Virus record (IMG/VR): IMGVR_UViG_3300020159_002763
Coordinates: 1-43,843 of that record
Source of the DNA: a virus
Strand: one strand, 5' to 3'
Length of the DNA stretch: 43,843 nucleotides
The notes below the pieces were generated by a model, which was given only the letters and a program-made list of their open reading frames with translations, had not been told where the DNA came from and searched no databases. A program made the translations under genes and the position numbers. Below, piece by piece: positions 1,513 through 43,843 of the stretch (positions within the stretch are counted from its first letter, which is position 1; every line of letters starts with the position of its first letter).

Positions 1513-1641
1513 ATGATAACCTCAGAAACTTCTTATAAACTTGTAGAAATTATCCATGATACTTGGCCTAACCTTTACAGACCAATAAAAAGGGATTATA
1601 ATAAAACAAAAGAATTAAAACCCAAGAATGAAAAAGTATAA
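1513..1641 (+). CDS. Small hypothetical protein, 42 aa
   Basis: ATG follows the HNH stop codon with no gap, and the reading frame (MITSETSYKLVEIIHDTWP...) ends 14 bases inside the next gene. The product is basic in its C-terminal half (many Lys residues) with no recognisable domain. Tight packing on both sides and the lack of other coding in this stretch support it. Comparison with other cyanophages would be needed to confirm it. Confidence 0.5.
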   Translation: MITSETSYKLVEIIHDTWPNLYRPIKRDYNKTKELKPKNEKV

Positions 1642-1945
1642 TACAGAAGATTACTTTTCTGTAAGAGAAAGAAGGACTGGAAGAAAAATTTGTGACTGTG
1701 GGGATTTTGAAGATGCAAGAATGCTCATGCATATGGATGCACCAAATCGTGAAATTGTAAAAAACAAAACACTTATGGGTGCAGTTATTGATGTAGAAAT
1801 GCCCAAGGCACTTCCTACTAATGAGATAGTACAAGGTGGTGTTGGTAATTCTTGGGAAACTCCAATGCCATCTGGTAATGGACCTGGATCATTACCTCAA
1901 ATCAAACTACCAGAAAGACAACAAGAACCTTTTATTGTTAATTGA
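1628..1945 (+). CDS. Hypothetical protein, 105 aa
   Basis: I do not recognise a family. The N-terminal half is charged (MKKYNTEDYFSVRERRTGRK) with a CDCGDFEDA segment; the C-terminal half is rich in Pro and Gly and looks unstructured. It overlaps the upstream 42-aa ORF by 14 bases and its stop lies one base before the ATG of the glycosyltransferase, so it is probably co-transcribed with the cassette. No clear Shine-Dalgarno sequence precedes the ATG. Confidence 0.65.
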   Translation: MKKYNTEDYFSVRERRTGRKICDCGDFEDARMLMHMDAPNREIVKNKTLMGAVIDVEMPKALPTNEIVQGGVGNSWETPMPSGNGPGSLPQIKLPERQQEPFIVN

Positions 1946-1946
1946 T

Positions 1947-2705
1947 ATGAAAGTATGCCATGTAGTTTTTTCTACCAATAGGGTAGAGTTTTTGAAAAAA
2001 ACATTTGAAGCACAAAAGAAATTTAATTATACTGGAGTAGAAGTACATAAACTTTTTATAGATGATTATCCTCTAGGTAGAGACAATGATGCTTTAGTTG
2101 AATTTGTAAAATCTTATGGTTATAATGAAGTAATCCTTCATGAAGAAAACCTTGGAATTACAAAAACTTGGCAACAGCTTTTTGATATAGTTAAGGATAG
2201 GGATTATGATTATATTCTACATCAAGAAGATGATGTGGAAATCATGTACCCATTAAAAGTTCTTGATATGATTGAAATTCTTCAACAGGATCCTACTTTA
2301 TCTCAAGTTCAATTGAAGAGAAATAATTGGTATGGTCATGAGACAGAAGAGATAGGACCTAGAGAAGATGATGTAGTTTTTAAACATTATAGATATGAAA
2401 AGGCAACTCCATATTTTTGGATGTTAACTTCTCTTTATCCTGCATGGATAGCAAAAGAACCTATTCTAGAAAGAACTGGATATAATCCTTCAGAATCAGT
2501 TATTGCTCAATATTTACAAATGCAATATAATATTGGTGCAGCATTATTAAAAACTGATACTGGTGGAATGATGGTCAATCATATTGGCGATTATTTTCAT
2601 GGTAAAAGAGTTGCAGAAGGAGAACCTGGATGGGATAGATTTCATATGCTTAATCCAGATATAAAATATTGTTCACGAACAGGAGATTATTGGAATGAAA
2701 GTTGA
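1947..2705 (+). CDS. Glycosyltransferase (GT-A fold), 252 aa
   Basis: Starts at the ATG one base after the previous stop; an in-frame upstream start at 1836 would overlap the previous gene by about 110 bases and is less likely. The N-terminus (MKVCHVVFSTNRVEFLKKT) has the opening beta-strand of GT2-type enzymes. ENLGITKTW (67-75) and the acidic EDD cluster at 94-96 (HQEDDVEI) correspond to the nucleotide-sugar and metal-binding elements. It would transfer a sugar from a nucleotide donor; donor and acceptor cannot be read from the sequence. It overlaps the next gene by 11 bases. It opens a five-gene cassette of glycan- or protein-modifying enzymes. Confidence 0.82.
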   Translation: MKVCHVVFSTNRVEFLKKTFEAQKKFNYTGVEVHKLFIDDYPLGRDNDALVEFVKSYGYNEVILHEENLGITKTWQQLFDIVKDRDYDYILHQEDDVEIMYPLKVLDMIEILQQDPTLSQVQLKRNNWYGHETEEIGPREDDVVFKHYRYEKATPYFWMLTSLYPAWIAKEPILERTGYNPSESVIAQYLQMQYNIGAALLKTDTGGMMVNHIGDYFHGKRVAEGEPGWDRFHMLNPDIKYCSRTGDYWNES

Positions 2706-3258
2706 TATGATTATTGCTGATAATTTTTATGATGATGCATATTCTATAAGAAATTATGCTCTATCTCAGCAATTTAATGTAAAAGGAAATTTCCCAGGGG
2801 CTAGAACTAATCCTTGCCTTACTGATGAAATGAAGGGAGCTATAAATGCTTTAGTTACTTATCCTGGAGGGGGAGTTACTGATTGGTTAAACAATCCAGA
2901 TGGGACAGGATATACTGGAGCATTTCAAATTTGCACTGCAAATGATAGAACTTGGATTCATGCTGATTACAATAATATGTGGGCAGGAGTTTGTTACTTA
3001 ACTCCAGATGCTCCTCTTAGTGGAGGAACTGCCATATACAGGTATAAAGAAACTAAAGAAATTCAATATACTAATACTGATTATGGATTTGATGGGTATG
3101 ATATGACCAAATGGGAACTTGTGGATAGAATTGGAAATATTTTTAATAGACTTATTCTTTATAGAGGAAATCTTTTTCACTCATCTATAGATTATTTTGG
3201 ATCTACCACAGATAATGGAAGACTATTCCAAACTTTCTTTTTTAATACCGCTTATTAA
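2695..3258 (+). CDS. 2OG-Fe(II) oxygenase-like protein (DUF6445 type), first copy
   Basis: A 187-residue protein with the facial-triad pattern of cupin-fold 2-oxoglutarate/Fe(II) oxygenases: H89-x-D91 (WIHADYNNMWAG), a distal H162 (GNLFHSS) and R176 as a possible 2-oxoglutarate anchor. The segments VCYLTPDAPLSGGT and RLFQTFFF are shared almost word for word with the protein at 3832-4416, so the two are paralogues. Such enzymes hydroxylate or otherwise oxidise proteins, sugars or small molecules; the substrate is unknown. The DUF6445 assignment is from memory of the family. Overlap with the glycosyltransferase (11 bases) suggests coupled translation. Confidence 0.7.
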   Translation: MKVDMIIADNFYDDAYSIRNYALSQQFNVKGNFPGARTNPCLTDEMKGAINALVTYPGGGVTDWLNNPDGTGYTGAFQICTANDRTWIHADYNNMWAGVCYLTPDAPLSGGTAIYRYKETKEIQYTNTDYGFDGYDMTKWELVDRIGNIFNRLILYRGNLFHSSIDYFGSTTDNGRLFQTFFFNTAY

Positions 3259-3260
3259 TC

Positions 3261-3848
3261 ATGAGAGTTTATAATGAAGGAACTTCTTATCATGAAGTTC
3301 CTTGGGAGATGGGAAAATTTAGTTATGGACCAGAATGTGGACATGTTCACATTCAACAATTCTTTGAAAATACTAAATTATACATAGGAAATTATACTGC
3401 CATAGGTCCAAATACAGCTGTTTATTTGGGAGGCAATCACATTACTAATTGGGCAACTGCTTTTCCATTTAAAGCATATTATATGTTCAATAAAGCAAAT
3501 CCTTTAATTAATTACAGTAATGGTGATGTAGTTATTGGCAATGATGTTTGGATTGCTGCCAATACAACTATTATGAGTGGAGTTACTATTGGGGATGGAG
3601 CAGTAATTGCTAATAATTCTCATGTGGTTAAGGATGTAGAACCCTATACTGTTGTTGGAGGAAACCCAGCTAAAGTAATTAGGAAGAGATTCTCAGATAA
3701 TATTATAGAACTACTTTTGAAATTAAGATGGTGGGAGTTTGAGGATGATCAAATTAATGACATGCTTCCAATACTCCAAAAAGATCCCACAGAAATAGAA
3801 ATAAAAGATTTACTTAATAGGTATAGGTCCCATGAACATAATGTTTAA
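3261..3848 (+). CDS. Hexapeptide-repeat O-acetyltransferase (CatB/VatD-like)
   Basis: A 195-residue protein with left-handed beta-helix hexapeptide repeats: IGNYTAIGPNTAVYLGGNH, then VVIGNDVWIAANTTIMSGVTIGDG and VIANNSHVVKDVEPYTVVGGNPAKVIRKRF. The GNPAKVIRKRF ending followed by LLLKLRWWEFEDD is typical of xenobiotic/sugar acetyltransferases of the CatB type, which move acetyl from acetyl-CoA to a hydroxyl group. In this setting, between two oxygenase-like proteins and two glycosyltransferases, a sugar hydroxyl is a more likely acceptor than an antibiotic (inference). It overlaps the next gene by 17 bases. Confidence 0.88.
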   Translation: MRVYNEGTSYHEVPWEMGKFSYGPECGHVHIQQFFENTKLYIGNYTAIGPNTAVYLGGNHITNWATAFPFKAYYMFNKANPLINYSNGDVVIGNDVWIAANTTIMSGVTIGDGAVIANNSHVVKDVEPYTVVGGNPAKVIRKRFSDNIIELLLKLRWWEFEDDQINDMLPILQKDPTEIEIKDLLNRYRSHEHNV

Positions 3849-4416
3849 TACAACTATTAATCAAGATTTTTCAAAAAGAATCTTTGTAGTAGATAATTTT
3901 TACTCAGATCCTTATGCAGTAAGAGAGTTTGCTTTACAGCAAGAATTTATTGCAGATCTTAGATATTATAAAGGAAAAAGAACCCAAGAAAAGTTTTTTG
4001 TTCCAGGTACAAAAGAAGTTTTTGAATCTATCATTGGATCTCAAATTAATATTTGGGAAGAATATGGTGTGAATGGAGTATTCCAAACATGTAATGCAGA
4101 AGATGCTCTTGTATATCATACAGATTTACAACAATGGGCAGGCATGGTATACTTAACTCCAGATGCTCCTTTTGAGTGTGGAACTTCTACGTATGCTCAT
4201 AAAGAAACTAGAGCAAGGCATACATCAGATCCTGGGATTGAAAATGCATTTGCTGGAGGTTTTTATGATAAAAGTAAATTTGAATTAGTTGATACTGTTG
4301 GTAATGTTTTTAATAGACTTGTTATTTTTAATGGCAAGTGTATACATTCTGCCTCAGAATACTTTGGCCAAACATTAGAAGATTCCAGATTGTTCCACAT
4401 GTTTTTCTTTGATTGA
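3832..4416 (+). CDS. 2OG-Fe(II) oxygenase-like protein (DUF6445 type), second copy
   Basis: Paralogue of the protein at 2695-3258. It keeps H96-x-D98 (VYHTDLQQWAG), H172 (GKCIHSAS) and R186 (DSRLFHMFFF), and the shared blocks YLTPDAP and GNVFNRLV. Length is 194 residues from this ATG; a second in-frame ATG at 3841 would shorten it by three. The two copies differ mainly in the N-terminal third and in the loop before the distal His, which may mean different substrates. It lies between the acetyltransferase (17-base overlap) and the glycosyltransferase-methyltransferase fusion, one base away. Enzymatic activity is inferred from residues only. Confidence 0.7.
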   Translation: MNIMFNTTINQDFSKRIFVVDNFYSDPYAVREFALQQEFIADLRYYKGKRTQEKFFVPGTKEVFESIIGSQINIWEEYGVNGVFQTCNAEDALVYHTDLQQWAGMVYLTPDAPFECGTSTYAHKETRARHTSDPGIENAFAGGFYDKSKFELVDTVGNVFNRLVIFNGKCIHSASEYFGQTLEDSRLFHMFFFD

Positions 4417-4417
4417 T

Positions 4418-5674
4418 ATGAAAAAATACAAGTTTAGTATTATTACTCCAGAGCATAGTAAAAAAAATATTCCTTTCCTAGTTGAATTGTATGAGACAAT
4501 TAAGGGACAAACTTATACTGATTGGGAATGGATTCTTTATTTGAATGGTGAATGTAAAACCTCAGACATTCCAGATGAAATTAAAGCAGATAAAAAGGTA
4601 AAGATCCATACAGGAATAACTAATTCTAATATTGGGTTTATTAAAAACAAAGCTTTTTTCCTAGGGACTGGAGATATTCTAGTAGAAGTAGATCATGATG
4701 ATTTACTTTCTTTAGATTGTTTAGAGGAACTCAATCTAGCTTTCCAAGATGAAGAAATTGGATTTGCTTACAGTGAAAATCTTCTTTATGATATGAGAGG
4801 GAACGAGTTTAAAGTTCCTTGGAACCCTGAAAATGGATGGACCAATACTTGGGTCAATTTTAGGGGGGAAGATTTTATGAAAATAGATCAGTTCCCAGCA
4901 ACCAGTCAGAGTGTAAGTATTATTTGGTATGCTCCAGACCATGTTAGATCTTGGAGAAAGGAAATCTATCATGAATTGGGTGGACATAATCCAGAGTTAA
5001 ATATCTGTGATGATCATGAATTAGTAATTAGAACTTATCTTAAAACTAAATTTAAATTTATCAAGAAAATTCTTTATTACTATAGATGGTTGCCAGGAGG
5101 AGATAATACTCAACTGATTAGAAATGAAGCAATTCAAATCAAAACTTTTGAATTGATGAGGGAATATTCTCAACTGTTAGCAGAAAGAGATGCTGACCTT
5201 AAGGGTTTGATGAAGGTTGATATTGGTGGAGGATTGTTTCCAAGACCTGGATATGTTACTATTGATCAAGAAGGTGGTGACATTACTTGTGATTTAAATG
5301 AAGGAATTCCACTGCCAGACAATAGTGTTGGTGTTATTAATGCAAGTCATGTATTAGAACACCTAAAGGATCCAATCAAATCCATGAAAGAAATTTACAG
5401 AGTTCTTTGTGATGGGGGTTGGGCATTCATTGAAGTTCCTTCTACAGATGGAAGAGGAGCTTTCCAAGATCCAACTCATGTTAGTTTTTGGAATGAAAAT
5501 AGTTTCTGGTATTATACTAGAAGAGATAAAGCACAATTTATCAGAAATGATACAATTAAGTTTCAAGAGTTTAGACTTGATACTACATGGTGGCAAGATA
5601 ACATAGCAGTAACAAGTGCTTGGCTTTGTGCCATAAAATCAAATACACGTAGACCACATCCAGTTAGAATTTAA
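4418..5674 (+). CDS. Glycosyltransferase family 2 - SAM methyltransferase fusion
   Basis: A 418-residue two-domain protein. Residues 1-225 form a GT2-type domain (KFSIITPEHS at the start, DHDD at 92-95 as metal-binding cluster, a CDDHELVIRTY segment near 197). Residues 265-418 form a class I methyltransferase of the type 11 kind: VDIGGG (267-272) as the SAM-binding glycine loop, then LPDNSVGVINASHVLEHL, a typical post-I to IV segment. It could add a sugar and methylate it or its carrier. The ATG at 4418 is preferred to an in-frame TTG at 4409, which overlaps the previous gene. It closes the cassette; glutaredoxin follows four bases later. Confidence 0.85.
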   Translation: MKKYKFSIITPEHSKKNIPFLVELYETIKGQTYTDWEWILYLNGECKTSDIPDEIKADKKVKIHTGITNSNIGFIKNKAFFLGTGDILVEVDHDDLLSLDCLEELNLAFQDEEIGFAYSENLLYDMRGNEFKVPWNPENGWTNTWVNFRGEDFMKIDQFPATSQSVSIIWYAPDHVRSWRKEIYHELGGHNPELNICDDHELVIRTYLKTKFKFIKKILYYYRWLPGGDNTQLIRNEAIQIKTFELMREYSQLLAERDADLKGLMKVDIGGGLFPRPGYVTIDQEGGDITCDLNEGIPLPDNSVGVINASHVLEHLKDPIKSMKEIYRVLCDGGWAFIEVPSTDGRGAFQDPTHVSFWNENSFWYYTRRDKAQFIRNDTIKFQEFRLDTTWWQDNIAVTSAWLCAIKSNTRRPHPVRI

Positions 5675-5678
5675 AGTT

Positions 5679-5927
5679 ATGAATTTTACAGTTTACAGCA
5701 AAAGAGGTTGTCCATATTGCGACAAAATTAAAACAGTTCTTGGGGATCTTAGTATCAGAAAAGGGATCCCTGTAATTTCATATGAACTTGGTACTGATTT
5801 TACCAGAGAAGAATTTTATTCAGAATTTGGTCAAGGATCTACTTTTCCTCAAATCATTATGGATGGGAAGCATCTTGGGGGGTGTTCTGATACAGTTAAA
5901 TATCTGAGTGAACAATCACTTCTTTGA
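5679..5927 (+). CDS. grx: Glutaredoxin, 82 aa
   Basis: A classic dithiol glutaredoxin: CPYC active site (C11, C14) in YSKRGCPYCDKIK, the TFPQI segment with the cis-Pro that binds glutathione, and a GGCSD motif near the C-terminus. It reduces disulfides with glutathione; in T4-like phages the matching protein (NrdC) supplies electrons to ribonucleotide reductase. Its stop codon overlaps the ATG of the next gene (TGATG). Confidence 0.92.
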   Translation: MNFTVYSKRGCPYCDKIKTVLGDLSIRKGIPVISYELGTDFTREEFYSEFGQGSTFPQIIMDGKHLGGCSDTVKYLSEQSLL

Positions 5928-38125: not shown

Positions 38126-38509
38126 ATGGCACAACAACCACTAAATACATACAAAACAGTTACTGGTATTGTTAGCACTACTGCTAACACAGAAATTTAT
38201 GCCACAAGAACAGGTTATACTAGCATTGTTCTTTTTGCACAAGTATCCAATACTGGATCTGGAATAGGAACAGTAACATTTTCACACAAAAGAGTCAACA
38301 GAAGTCAATCTGGAATATCTACTGATATTACAGAAGTTATTAGTGGGGGCATAGTTCCACCTAATGATGCTCTGATTCTTTTAGAAGGAAGATTGGTTTT
38401 AGAAAGGACCGCATTAAAAACTGATAGCATTGTAATGAGTGGAATTTCTACCACATCTCCAAATCATGTCAAATACACTGTAAGTATCCTGGAAACTCTT
38501 AATCAATAA
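38126..38509 (+). CDS. Small virion-module protein, 127 aa
   Basis: A beta-rich protein ([60 protein letters not shown]). The segment [19 protein letters not shown] looks like a small jelly-roll or Ig-like capsid or fibre accessory domain found in marine phages. It lies six bases after the preceding fibre gene and overlaps the collagen-like gene by one base. No name can be assigned. Confidence 0.68.
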
Positions 38510-41500
38510 TGGCAAAGTATCTTAGTCGCAGAGTAATAAGAACTCCACAATCCAGGTTAACTTCTGATAGGTATCAGTATCTTGGATTAAATCAGGCAGA
38601 GCCTAATTTAGGAGATCCACCATATTCTGGATCTATTCCAGTTGGAGATAGATATTTTTTAATTTCTATCCCCACCTATCCAGGACAAAGATTTTGGGTT
38701 CCTCTAGAAACTCTTCCTCTAGGATTTACAGTAAGGGATGAAGGAACTGTAGTTGGTGTAGCTAACTCAATTACTATTTTAGACTTTGTTGGAGTTAGTG
38801 TTAGTGTTGTAGGTTTTGCATCTGCTGGTGTAGGCATTGCAACTATTAGAGTTGATTCAAAAATTCCAGTAGTTGAGCCAGATGATGCACGCCCAAGATA
38901 CTTAGGATTTACTACTGAAAGATTTGGTGGATTAGTAACTACATTTGATATTGCTCCAAGTAATATAGTTTATATTCCTGCAGCTCAATCATTAGGAATT
39001 GGAACTAATAATCCAAATACAAATTATCAGTTGGACATACAAGTTCCAACAGTAAGAATAAAAGGAGATATTGCAAATAAAGATGGGAATGTTGGACTAT
39101 TCCCTCAAGTATTAACTTCATTAGGTCCAGGAGCAGGATTTACTTGGAACTCAGTTAGTGGATTTATTGGACCACAAGGACCTCAAGGATTTAGAGGACC
39201 TCAGGGATCACAAGGATTCCAAGGATTCAGAGGACCTCAGGGATCACAAGGATTCCAAGGTTTTCTAGGTCCACAAGGACCCCAAGGTTTCCAAGGACCC
39301 CAAGGATTTGGACCTCAAGGTGCTCAAGGACCTCAAGGTGCTCAAGGATTCCAGGGATTCCAAGGTCCTCAAGGCGCACAAGGATTCCAAGGATTCCAGG
39401 GAAACCAAGGCAATCAAGGATTCCAAGGAGACCAGGCACCACAGGGAATTCAAGGTCCTCAAGGATTCCAAGGTCCTCAAGGAGCTCAAGGATTCCAGGG
39501 ATTCCAAGGACCTCAAGGAGCTCAAGGATTCCAGGGAAATCAAGGATTCCAGGGATTCCAAGGTCCTCAAGGTGCTCAAGGATTCCAAGGAAACCAAGGA
39601 CCTCAAGGTTTACAGGGTCCTCAAGGTGTACAGGGAAATCAAGGAACTCAGGGATTCCAAGGATTCCAGGGACCTCAAGGGGTTCAAGGATTCCAAGGAT
39701 TTAGAGGACCTCAAGGTTCTCAGGGATTCCAAGGATTCCAGGGACCTCAAGGGGTTCAAGGATTCCAAGGATTTAGAGGACCTCAAGGACCTCAAGGTTT
39801 ACAGGGTCCTCAGGGCGTACAAGGATTCCAGGGAAATACTGGAACATCTATTACTATTGTAGGATCAGTTCCATCAGTTACTACTTCTTCACCAAATACA
39901 ACATTAACTGCTAACGATACTGGATTTCCATGGTATCCACCAACTGCTGGAGATGGAGTTATTGCTCTAGATACTGGAGATTTGTGGGTTTATAATGGGT
40001 CTGATTGGGATAATGTAGGTCAAATTAGAGGAGATACTGGATTCCAAGGTCCTCAAGGTGCTCAAGGCAATCAAGGAAACCAAGGCAATCAAGGATTTCA
40101 GGGTCCTCAAGGTAATCAAGGTAATCAAGGACCTCAAGGAGTCCAAGGATTCCAAGGTAATCAAGGATTCGAAGGACCTCAAGGTGCTCAAGGAAACCAG
40201 GGATTCCAAGGACCTCAGGGTGCTCAAGGATTCCAAGGATTACTAGGACCCCAAGGTAATCAAGGATTCCAGGGATTACTAGGACCTCAAGGAACACAAG
40301 GCACTCAAGGAGTATTAGGACCACAAGGACCCCAAGGATTACAAGGACCTCAAGGATTCCAGGGACCTCAAGGTTCTCAAGGTAATCAAGGTTTCCAAGG
40401 ACCACAAGGCGCACAAGGATTCCAAGGTAATCAGGGAAATCAGGGCAATCAAGGAGTTAGGGGTCCTCAAGGTGCTCAAGGTTTACAAGGTCCTCAGGGA
40501 TTCCAAGGACCTCAGGGTGTCCAAGGATTCCAAGGACCTCAGGGTGTCCAAGGATTCCAGGGAAATCAAGGCAACCAAGGAAATCAAGGTGTTCAGGGTG
40601 TAATAGGACCCCAAGGAACTCAGGGATTCCAAGGAATAGCAGGAAACCAAGGTGGAGATGGATTTTTTGGACCTCAAGGACCTCAAGGGGTTCAAGGACC
40701 TCAAGGATTCCAGGGAACTCAAGGTTTCCAAGGTCCTCAAGGATCTCAAGGAAATCAAGGTTTCCAAGGTAATCAAGGAAATCAAGGTTTCCAGGGATTC
40801 CAAGGACCTCAGGGTGCTCAAGGATTCCAGGGAAATCAAGGTTTCCAAGGAAATCAAGGATTTAGAGGACCTCAAGGACCCCAAGGATTACAAGGTCCTC
40901 AAGGATTTGGTCCACAAGGACCTCAAGGATTCCAAGGAAATCAAGGAAGTCAAGGATTCCAAGGAGAGGCTGGGGTAAGAGGACCTCAAGGTGCTCAAGG
41001 AACACAAGGAACACAAGGGAACCAAGGTAATCAAGGTAATCAAGGTAATCAAGGTAATCAGGGATTTAGAGGACCTCAAGGATTCCAAGGACCTCAAGGT
41101 TTGCAAGGTCCTCAAGGAACCCAAGGAACTCAAGGAAACCAGGGTAATCAAGGTGCCCAAGGATTCCAAGGACCTCAAGGTGTACAAGGATTCCAGGGTT
41201 TCCAAGGAAACCAAGGATTTACAGGACCTCAAGGTGTACAAGGATTCCAAGGCAATCAAGGCAATCAAGGAAATCAAGGATTTAGAGGACCTCAAGGCGT
41301 ACAAGGACCACAAGGTATTGCAGGTCCTCAAGGTGGATCTGGTGGAGCAGGATTCCAAGGACCACAAGGTTCACAAGGAAACCAAGGATTTAAAGGAGAA
41401 GTTGGACCACAAGGACCACAGGGATTCCAAGGACCTCAAGGTGTACAAGGATTCCAAGGTAATCAAGGCAACCAAGGTTTCCAAGGTTCTCAAGGACCAC

Positions 41501-42819
41501 AAGGTTTTCAGGGACCTCAAGGAGCTCAAGGATTCCAGGGAAATCAAGGCACCCAAGGATTTAGAGGACCTCAAGGTGCTCAAGGATTCCAAGGACCTCA
41601 AGGCACACAAGGATTCCAGGGAAATCAAGGTAATCAAGGTTTTAGAGGACCTCAAGGTGTTCAAGGACCTCAAGGATTCCAGGGACCTCAGGGACCAGCA
41701 GGAACAGCACTTGATATTAAAGGAACAGTTGCAACAGTAGGAAACTTACCTACATGCGATGGAACTACAATTGGAGATGCATATGTTGTTCAGGCAGATG
41801 GTAATCTTTATGTTTGTAATGGAGCTACTTATGACAATGTAGGCAAAATTCTTGGACCTCAAGGATTCCAGGGAAATCAAGGTAATCAAGGTGCTCAAGG
41901 ATTCCAAGGATTCCAGGGGAATCAAGGCAATCAAGGTAATCAAGGATTCCAGGGAAATCAAGGATTTAGAGGACCTCAAGGACCTCAAGGAATTCAAGGA
42001 AACCAAGGCAATCAAGGCAATCAAGGTGCACAAGGATTCCAAGGAAACCAAGGTCTACAGGGCACAGGTCCTCAAGGTGCTCAAGGAAATCAAGGTGTTG
42101 CAGGACCCCAAGGTGCTCAAGGACCTCAAGGAGCTCAAGGATTCCAAGGTAATCAAGGAAATCAAGGGTTCCAAGGACCTCAAGGTGTTCAAGGATTCCA
42201 AGGATTCCAAGGATTCCAAGGATTTAGAGGACCTCAGGGTGTTCAGGGTGGACAAGGACCTCAAGGTGCAGTTGGACCTCAAGGAGCTCAAGGTTCTCCA
42301 GGTTCTGGAGGAACACAGGGAACCGATGGTGCTATTGGACCCCAAGGTGCAAGAGGACCTCAAGGTGCTCAAGGATTCCAGGGATTCCAAGGAAACCAAG
42401 GAAACCAAGGATTCCAAGGTGTAGATGGAACAAATGGTACTCAAGGAATAAATGGTACTCAAGGATTCCAAGGTTTCCAAGGAAATCAAGGTCTTACTGG
42501 ACCATCAACAGTAGTAAATGCTACTAACACTACAGGTGATGCTACTTATTATCCAGTATTTGTTGATAGTGCTGGTGTTAATGCTACTCCTAGAATTAGA
42601 TCAACTGCTCCTGCACTATCTTATAATCCAGGAACAGGCGAATTATTTGTTGGAGGAGCAATTGCTCTTACTAAGAATCCATTTTTTAGAAACATTCCTA
42701 CAATTGCTGAAGACTACACAGTAACAACAACATATAATGAAATGAGTATTGGTCCTATCACTATTAACTCTGGCATCACTGTTACAGTTAACAGTGGAGC
42801 AACTTGGACTGTAGTTTAG
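38509..42819 (+). CDS. Collagen-like fibre protein with two knob domains, 1436 aa
   Basis: N-terminal domain (1-222) begins [20 protein letters not shown] and has a beta-sandwich part. Three runs of Gly-X-Y follow, at about 39172-39837, 40024-41700 and 41857-42500, by coordinates about 330 triplets in total. X is mostly Pro/Phe/Asn and Y almost always Gln (GPQ, GFQ, GNQ). Two knobs interrupt them: residues about 444-505 ([17 protein letters not shown]) and 1065-1116 ([17 protein letters not shown]), paralogous to each other. GFGPQ steps break the triplet register. The C-terminal 105 residues form a non-repeat domain that could start trimer assembly. Confidence 0.9.
39172..42500 (+). repeat. 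Collagen-like Gly-X-Y coding repeat tract
   Basis: Near-continuous 9-base and longer units built from GGACCTCAA, GGATTCCAA, GGAAATCAA and variants. The Gln codon is nearly always CAA or CAG. Frames on the opposite strand lack stops and produce long shadow ORFs rich in Ser/Leu; these are not genes. Confidence 0.95.
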
Positions 42820-42851: not shown

Positions 42852-43172
42852 ATGGCAGTGCCATCAGTTAATTTAACAGTAGAGCAAGGAACTGATTTTT
42901 CCTTTGCTATGAGAATTAAATTGGATGGTGCTGCTTTGGATTTGAGCGGATATACCTTTTCATCAAAAATTAAAAAGCACTATGGAGCAGCTACTTCATA
43001 TCCAATAACAGTTGAATCAGAAGGTGATGGAATAATAACTTTATCAATAGCAAGCACAATAACTTCTACTATTCCAGTTGGTAGATATTATTATGATGTT
43101 TTATATGATAATGGACCAACTATTGTAAAAGCAGTTGATGGTATGGTGATAATTAGGGGAACTGCATCATGA
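42852..43172 (+). CDS. Small fibre-associated protein, 106 aa
   Basis: A beta-sandwich-like protein ([58 protein letters not shown]). The [10 protein letters not shown] pattern is seen in small phage tail-associated proteins such as the BppU N-terminal domain, which docks onto baseplates. It overlaps the second collagen gene by ATGA, so the two are probably made together, perhaps as attachment base and fibre. Confidence 0.72.
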
Positions 43173-43843
43173 TAGATATTGAGATTGGATCAAATTCAAA
43201 TAGTATTGAAATTGGATTAAATTCTTCACAATCTTTAGAAAGTTTTGTTAGTGGAAGAGGACCAAGAGGACCTCAAGGTTTCCAGGGTCCTCAAGGTGTA
43301 CAAGGATTCCAGGGTCCTCAAGGTGTACAAGGATTCCAGGGATTTCAAGGACCTCAAGGATTCCAAGGACCTCAAGGTGTACAAGGACCTCAAGGATTTG
43401 GTCCTCAGGGATCTCAAGGAAACCAGGGATTCCAAGGTCCTCAAGGTGTTCAAGGTTTCCAGGGAAATCAAGGAAATCAAGGAAATCAAGGAAACCAAGG
43501 AAATCAAGGATTCCAAGGACCTCAAGGAGCTCAAGGATTCCAAGGTAATCAAGGTAATCAAGGAAACCAAGGAAATCAAGGATTCCAAGGACCTCAAGGA
43601 TTTGGTCCTCAGGGATCTCAAGGAAACCAGGGATTCCAAGGTCCTCAAGGTGTTCAAGGACCTCAAGGATTTGGTCCTCAGGGATCTCAAGGAAACCAGG
43701 GATTCCAGGGTCCTCAAGGTGTACAAGGTTTCCAAGGTACACAGGGAAATCAAGGGTTCCAAGGACCTCAAGGTATTCAAGGTCCTCAAGGTGTACAAGG
43801 TTTCCAGGGAAATCAGGGTCCTCAAGGATCTCAAGGATTCCAA
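43169..43843 (+). CDS. Second collagen-like fibre protein, 3'-truncated by the window edge
   Basis: ATG at 43169 overlaps the previous stop. A 32-residue head ([20 protein letters not shown]...) leads directly into Gly-X-Y repeats: [18 protein letters not shown] and on. All 225 visible codons are open, with no stop before the edge. [11 protein letters not shown] steps break the triplet register at three places, each inside an exact 50-bp repeat. The head is much shorter than that of the first collagen gene. Longer minus-strand frames across this tract are shadows. Confidence 0.9.
43385..43707 (+). repeat. Three exact 50-bp direct repeats in the second collagen gene
   Basis: 43385-43434, 43589-43638 and 43658-43707 are identical and encode [16 protein letters not shown]; the first two stay identical for at least 20 more bases. 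They are likely sites of in-frame length change. Confidence 0.93.

Follow-up and report, generated by a model that had tools for sequence, protein, structure and literature searches.

The stretch of DNA considered here, hereafter the window, is a 43.8-kb virus record from IMG/VR (IMGVR_UViG_3300020159_002763; 43,843 nucleotides). It is a piece of a T4-like cyanophage genome, since it carries psbA, phoH, gp32, baseplate and tail-tube genes, and long tail fibres. psbA opens the window and is apparently truncated by its start, with 324 residues against about 359 in relatives. Our subject is an island of five genes, arranged head to tail on the plus strand from 1947 to 5674, in which two predicted oxygenases of the DUF6445 family keep company with glycosyltransferases (GTs). 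The starts and stops of all five were checked:

1947..2705, plus strand: GT1, a GT2-like glycosyltransferase of 252 residues with an EDD motif, the partner of OX1 (sub-cut-off Pfam match and gene neighbourhood)
2695..3258, plus strand: OX1, a DUF6445 protein of 187 residues, predicted Fe(II)/2-oxoglutarate (2OG) oxygenase, with H89, D91, H162 and R176 (Pfam and structure model)
3261..3848, plus strand: ACT, a hexapeptide acetyltransferase, occupant of an exchangeable slot (Pfam Hexapep; nearest the CatB/Vat group)
3832..4416, plus strand: OX2, a DUF6445 protein of 194 residues, predicted Fe(II)/2OG oxygenase, with H96, D98, H172 and R186 (Pfam and structure model)
4409..5674, plus strand: GTMT, an N-terminal GT2 domain (residues 10-152) fused to a class I methyltransferase (residues 294-341) (Pfam)

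The start of OX1 overlaps the end of GT1 by 11 nucleotides, that of OX2 overlaps the end of ACT by 17, and the likely start of GTMT is the ATG at 4418. An earlier reading of the letters by a model, made without database searches (the sequence-only reading), had described five genes on one strand that overlap or nearly touch. Its open reading frames (ORFs) were confirmed, and the motifs it named are present: EDD in GT1, DHDD and VDIGGG in GTMT, and HxD...H...R in both DUF6445 proteins. DUF6445 (PF20043) matches OX1 at 47.7 bits and OX2 at 41.8, above the Pfam gathering cut-off of 24, and GTMT matches both Glycos_transf_2 (32.0 bits, cut-off 23.3) and Methyltransf_11 (40.0 bits, cut-off 21.2). 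GT1 reaches 19.2 bits on Glycos_transf_2 (PF00535; E 0.0013), under the cut-off of 23.3, and its relative at locus L062 lies barely over it at 23.7. No relative of GT1 was found at E 1e-5 among 50,697 phage records, and no significant one among solved structures. OX1 and OX2 are 41% identical and, judged by sequence, are paralogues. Among solved structures ACT most resembles the CatB/Vat acetyltransferases (6mfk, E 3e-37), yet it falls below the NCBIfam cut-offs of those curated resistance families (137.7 of 300 and 136.3 of 350 bits); gene context suggests that its substrate is a sugar. Hydropathy gave no membrane segment in any of the five proteins.

Scans of viral contigs returned 417 relatives of OX1 and 105 of GTMT, of which the best 80 loci were used in each case, together with 41 of OX2 (40 distinct loci) and 19 of GT1. 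Loci chained by any identical 250-mer (300-mers in one earlier comparison) were treated as one group, and 30 groups of IMG/VR contigs were selected for holding OX1 plus OX2 or GTMT. GT1, OX1, OX2 and GTMT all occur, in that order, in 27 of these 30 selected groups; two of the other three lack OX2, and GT1 was not seen in the third. Because the four-gene order recurs so widely, the clustering is not due to chance, and the conserved unit is GT1-OX1-slot-OX2-GTMT. The slot holds a 2OG-FeII_Oxy_3 protein and a GT in 11 of the 30 groups, a UDP-galactopyranose mutase and a GT in 13 (in three of which they are placed between OX2 and GTMT), and ACT in one; it is empty in three, and the other two groups are those without OX2.

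The exact five-gene order with ACT is confined to that single group, which comprises the window, the near-identical contig 3300020205_001531, and two contigs (L019 and L020) whose GT1, ACT, OX2 and GTMT are 96-99% identical to those of the window. The sequence-only reading had seen a five-gene cassette. Its clustering and conserved order stand, and the condition it set for refutation, genes that occur separately in most relatives, is largely not borne out, with the backbone present in 27 of 30 selected groups; the unit, however, is four genes plus a slot, and the cassette is therefore one slot variant of a commoner island. In group L005, three different slot contents occur on contigs that share 89-94% identity on the downstream side of the slot, where one stretch reaches 99%, which suggests exchange. 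A separate observation concerns OX1 itself, which is just 65% identical between the window and L019/L020 despite the 96-99% identity of its neighbours; from the sequences it seems to have been swapped for a divergent allele. The nearest other OX1 relative (75% identity) belongs to L004, where an HNH gene and a collagen-like gene are its neighbours, and directly before this L004 copy (489-2717) is a 742-residue protein with RXYLT1/GT47-like and FkbM methyltransferase regions.

Within the unit there are two oxygenase/GT pairs, OX1 with GT1 and OX2 with GTMT, and ACT is the replaceable part. Counting groups with readable flanks, GT1 adjoins or is fused to OX1 in 73 of 89, upstream in 31, downstream in 40 and fused in two, so the pairing survives rearrangement; GTMT adjoins OX2 in 33 of 41. 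No such neighbour was found within the limits used in the other 16 OX1 groups and 8 OX2 groups. Slot genes intervene in at least three of these eight (L017, L030 and L038), and in L010 the ORF starts overlap. DUF6445 is fused to GT1 in L048 and L055, to a GT2-TPR protein in L131 and L134, to a methyltransferase-like region and GT2 in L132 (the methyltransferase being under cut-off), to GT17 and a methyltransferase in L294 (DUF6445 under the Pfam cut-off; family-alignment match E 1e-68), to GT17 in L469, and to a TPR-FkbM methyltransferase in L468. That the five genes work as one unit is supported by the conserved order and by these fusions. One further GTMT match, in L163 (6001-7248), is scattered over several frames, as in a broken gene or a sequencing error.

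As a DUF6445 sequence profile found no significant match among solved-structure sequences (best E 0.099), a fold search was used. AlphaFold2 models of OX1 (predicted local distance difference test 92.1, predicted template modelling score 0.88) and OX2 (91.4 and 0.85) both have a double-stranded beta-helix fold, with VIA-align Z scores to 2OG oxygenases of up to 14.6 and 13.8, respectively. The closest folds to the models are protein prolyl hydroxylases, tied with small-molecule enzymes when rows within 1 Z unit are counted as ties. For OX1 the list is headed by OGFOD1 (Z 14.6 over 159 residues, root-mean-square deviation 2.6) and a Trichoplax prolyl hydroxylase (14.5), followed by the P. putida prolyl 4-hydroxylase (14.4), PiuC (14.4) and PHD2 (14.3), with the collagen prolyl hydroxylase of PBCV-1 at 13.3; for OX2 it begins with OGFOD1 (13.8), the Trichoplax enzyme (13.4), PHD2 (13.3) and SnoN (13.2). 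H89, D91, H162 and R176 (OX1 numbering) are invariant across 40 sequences, and in a 35-row set with cultured phages H162 is kept in at least 90% and the other three remain invariant. We take HxD...H to be the iron triad and the Arg to bind 2OG in both proteins. OX1 and OX2 are confidently predicted from these models to be Fe(II)/2OG oxygenases, which bears out, at the level of prediction, what the sequence-only reading had called oxygenase-like. The modelled fold backs an oxygenase and gives no choice between protein and small-molecule substrates.

A candidate protein substrate is encoded 33 kb away in the same window, followed by a second frame of the same kind:

38509..42819, plus strand: collagen-like tail fibre of 1436 residues, the proposed substrate (Pfam Collagen, 497 bits; PHROG tail fibre families)
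43169..43843, plus strand: second collagen-like ORF, truncated by the window end (229-codon open frame)

The complete fibre has 328 G-X-Y triplets in runs, with Gln at Y in 285 and, at X, Phe in 90, Pro in 83 and Asn in 61. The preference for Gln at Y recurs in most of the collagen-like ORFs inspected in the vicinity of GTMT or OX1 genes. The share of triplets with Pro at X is 64-70% for seven OX1-GT1 loci and 25% for the window; it is 13% at L048, 36% at L055, and no more than 14% at the GT::OX2 fusion loci L131, L132 and L135. A tie between OX1 and proline-rich repeats was considered; it involves only a few related phages, and we do not use it as support.

We called an ORF collagen-like if runs of at least six G-X-Y triplets made up 36 or more of its residues, and fetched up to 6 kb on either side of each gene as its locus. 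Such an ORF lies in 16 of 35 non-redundant GTMT loci, six times as the immediate neighbour, compared with 0 of 27 phoH loci and 0 of 18 loci of a GT that belongs to the sugar cluster of S-SSM7 (Fisher p 2e-5 and 3e-4). This association ties the GTMT family to collagen-like fibres. Whole records were compared as well. Of 28 IMG/VR records that contain the island, or else GTMT or OX relatives, 24 have a Collagen match (E 0.001), as do 14 of 19 records retrieved with DUF6445. Among 20 records of at least 30 kb (14 phoH-anchored, plus six of 16 further records, of which 11 were gp32- and 5 phoH-anchored), collagen is present in 8 of 8 with DUF6445 vs 4 of 12 without (p 0.005). Adding eight records examined earlier (G001, G004-G009 and G015) gives 14 of 16 vs 4 of 12 (Fisher two-sided p 0.005). 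Contig 3300020205_001531 (34 kb, with the cassette) was left out of this test. The truncated near-copy of the window phage, G061, is among the records that weaken the association; p is 0.003 without it. In 25 of the 87 OX1 groups the gene lies no more than 4.5 kb upstream of neck gene gp13, gp14 or gp15; for 16 of them the locus also contains a collagen-like ORF. The arrangement in L062, collagen fibre-GT4-ORF-OX1-GT1-gp13-gp14-gp15-collagen, is an example.

Our preferred reading, which we hold tentatively, is that the island enzymes hydroxylate and glycosylate a protein of the virion, the collagen-like tail fibre being the probable one. We infer every chemical step of the following scheme, as well as the step order, the acceptor residue and the target. 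A soluble pathway would modify a virion protein, most likely the fibre described above. OX1 would hydroxylate side chains in the G-X-Gln repeats, with proline our best guess, and OX2 would hydroxylate a second site or residue type. GT1 would put the first sugar on the new hydroxyl, GTMT would add a sugar and O-methylate, and the slot enzyme would complete the glycan, by O-acetylation here and with galactofuranose or further oxidation in relatives. It is the oxygenase/GT pairing and the fusions that suggest hydroxylation as the step preparing the sugar site. The sequence-only reading likewise had the enzymes act in sequence; its order of sugar transfer before oxidation would be better read as hydroxylation first. 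Its proposal of two oxidations flanking an acetylation is rejected, because the slot that ACT occupies takes other genes in relatives. It is tempting to extend the scheme, so that the two oxygenase/GT pairs modify the phage's own collagen-like fibres and the exchanged slot gives the virion a glycan 'serotype', an extension that we consider rather unlikely as a whole.

Much can be set against a fibre target. All 16 collagen-bearing GTMT loci are distant relatives, at no more than 63% identity, and among GTMT loci at 67% or more collagen is in the locus in 0 of 6. DUF6445 is absent from 14 of the 16, so that they permit no inference on hydroxylation. Sampled directly, DUF6445 loci hold collagen in 3 of 25 non-redundant cases, and those of further relatives in 5 of 34. 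The place that OX1 occupies in the window, with psbA, nrdC or speD near, is shared by 33 of the 87 groups, and none of these 33 has a collagen-like ORF in the locus; in the remaining 29 groups three do. This is also the region of the phoH control. It may be that neck genes simply adjoin the fibre cluster, since the sole neck locus fetched without DUF6445 also has collagen and leaves no proper neck control. The association tests ignore phylogeny, and three fragments (G007, G008 and G010) have the backbone and no collagen match. An OX1 relative occurs in 23 phage records (some of them duplicate entries); ten named cultured phages among them were tested for collagen, and it was matched in three: DSL-LC02, S-SCSM2R and, marginally, S-SSM7 (E 9.9e-4). 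S-CRM01 has GTMT and collagen without DUF6445. The fold ties of OX1 include the small-molecule enzymes SnoN (13.7) and HalA (13.6), and Foldseek ranks HygX third for OX2. Finally, slot exchange would suit variation of a surface antigen equally well.

The strongest rival is accordingly one in which the enzymes remodel host lipopolysaccharide or exopolysaccharide, for instance to exclude other phages, with the oxygenases acting on sugars and the slot setting the surface type; we regard this as doubtful, though a serious possibility. UDP-galactopyranose mutases and O-acetyltransferases are frequent in envelope-glycan synthesis, and a UDP-galactopyranose mutase and an acetyltransferase sit in the slot. 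S-SSM7 and Sf-FS3 each carry one DUF6445 copy within a cluster of nucleoside diphosphate (NDP)-sugar and GT genes, and HygX, the match to OX2, was solved with hygromycin B. Such a target also agrees with the published view of cyanophage GT clusters, which is that they act on the host surface or on a secondary metabolite (PMC7824862, PMC7029224). The related lipopolysaccharide or capsule clusters of P-SSM2 and S-SSM7 resemble the island in having GT and 2OG-oxygenase genes in variable clusters (PMC7824862, PMC3037559), but they include NDP-sugar enzymes, of which there are none among the island's five genes. Moreover, GTMT relatives and many OX1-GT1 units lie beside collagen-like or neck genes, unlike the S-SSM7 sugar-cluster GT with its 0 of 18, and the mimivirus collagen-modifying enzymes were themselves formerly annotated as lipopolysaccharide enzymes (PMC9546862). 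On balance the evidence leans, not strongly, away from host envelope glycans and to a virion target, of which the collagen-like fibre is the leading candidate.

The same logic could apply to another virion protein, such as other tail fibres, the baseplate or the capsid. In S-WAM2 the gene adjoins neck genes and fibres that are not of the collagen kind, in ACG-2014j it is near a short tail fibre, neither phage having a collagen match, and 9 of the 25 neck-linked groups have no collagen-like ORF in the locus. We think this unlikely, as it leaves the collagen associations unexplained; the PHROG name of the family, 'minor coat protein', also points this way, but it is an annotation given without its basis. 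A product outside the virion, either a free glycosylated small molecule or a modified peptide, appears improbable to us. It would fit the ties with natural-product oxygenases (SnoN, HygX), the occurrence of cellular OX1 relatives in Streptomyces and Nocardia, and the alternative published for a second cyanophage cluster in PMC7824862, but by Pfam none of the five genes encodes a biosynthetic core enzyme, and structural genes are nearby in 25 of 87 groups. Base modification by a hydroxylase and a GT exists, and offers a formal analogy for hypermodification of phage DNA, with base hydroxylation followed by glycosylation. This we set aside as very improbable, because no DNA-base-modifying family appears among the Pfam and NCBIfam matches; OX2 does match a PHROG labelled DNA endonuclease V (E 1e-7), but its modelled fold is that of a prolyl-hydroxylase-type oxygenase. 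Of the targets that the sequence-only reading listed, then, virion proteins are favoured over host lipopolysaccharide, and the evidence leans away from DNA.

Modification of a fibre by hydroxylation and glycosylation would have a viral precedent. Mimivirus L230 carries a lysyl hydroxylase and a glucosyltransferase on one polypeptide and modifies collagen, and with R699 it illustrates 2OG hydroxylase and GT activities in a collagen-encoding virus (PMC9546862). The window likewise combines a collagen-like protein with oxygenase and GT genes, and the two functions are fused in relatives at loci L048, L055, L131, L134, L294 and L469, although they are separate genes in the window. The island differs in its DUF6445 enzymes, its bacterial virus, its GT2-type transferases, and its methylation and acetylation. 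The mimivirus acceptor is Lys at Y; in the window fibre Lys holds Y in only 1 of 328 triplets, so hydroxylysine is not the acceptor here. In Dictyostelium, a cytoplasmic prolyl 4-hydroxylase makes a hydroxyproline in Skp1 that is then glycosylated (PMC3515798). The OX2 model matches that enzyme (6t8m, Z 12.3), among many others; Skp1, however, is a signalling protein, whereas here a repeat-rich virion fibre is proposed and the pathway is predicted from genes. The PBCV-1 enzyme vCPH (5c5t) is a viral 2OG oxygenase of similar fold (the Z of 13.3 above) but is only 11% identical to OX1 in the structural alignment. Elsewhere, a viral prolyl 4-hydroxylase has been set beside tail-fibre collagen, with the remark, in PMC9301287, that viral use 'remains cryptic', and such phage genes have been linked to 2OG/nitrogen status or DNA repair (PMC3037559). 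A literature search on DUF6445 found no paper, and no report of a system that hydroxylates and glycosylates phage collagen-like fibres was among the matches listed.

Several cultured phages and outlying loci show other arrangements. In Synechococcus phage DSL-LC02 the DUF6445 gene lies between fibre genes, near collagen-like and mannosyltransferase-like genes; adjoining it, among the tail-fibre genes (L214, 6794-9537), is a 717-residue TPR/FkbM methyltransferase/radical SAM/SPASM protein, whose radical SAM/SPASM part suggests peptide modification. P-HM1 has its DUF6445 gene alone, with gp55 and gp47 on either side. Synechococcus phage S-CREM1 (L223, 3233-8723) has a row of nine genes annotated 2OG oxygenase or JmjC, with an annotated collagen-like protein nearby, as well as a tryptophan halogenase; PF01391 gave no match in S-CREM1 despite that annotation. 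In 14 loci with GTMT relatives of 37-56% identity (L140-L170), the fusion stands beside collagen-like fibre genes without DUF6445, which is possibly a simpler fibre-glycosylation system.

In the window, the tight run extends beyond the five genes at both ends:

1628..1945, plus strand: ORF105, a small protein, first of the tight run, its stop one nucleotide ahead of GT1
5679..5927, plus strand: glutaredoxin (nrdC), the usual downstream neighbour (Pfam and gene neighbourhood)

Pfam and PHROG searches gave no match for ORF105, and its relatives occupy the corresponding position in many contigs. The glutaredoxin is probably not part of the island's function. A free-standing HNH endonuclease gene (1141-1512) lies between psbA and ORF105, and others are found near the island, in different positions, in L038 and L004; such genes may help slot exchange. 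The motif TATAAATA is not enriched (2 observed, 5.06 expected), and promoter-like sites between 900 and 7000 are at chance level (32 observed, 29.3 expected).

For DUF6445, the analysis supplies a predicted chemistry and partners. It also offers an alternative to the usual view that cyanophage GTs and 2OG oxygenases act on host lipopolysaccharide or metabolism. If our reading of a fibre-modifying island is true, bacterial viruses would have, in a system made of DUF6445 enzymes, their own counterpart of the collagen modification of animals, and the tail fibres of these phages would be hydroxylated glycoproteins with exchangeable glycans. This would bear on host recognition, on fibre stability, and on the engineering of collagen in bacteria.

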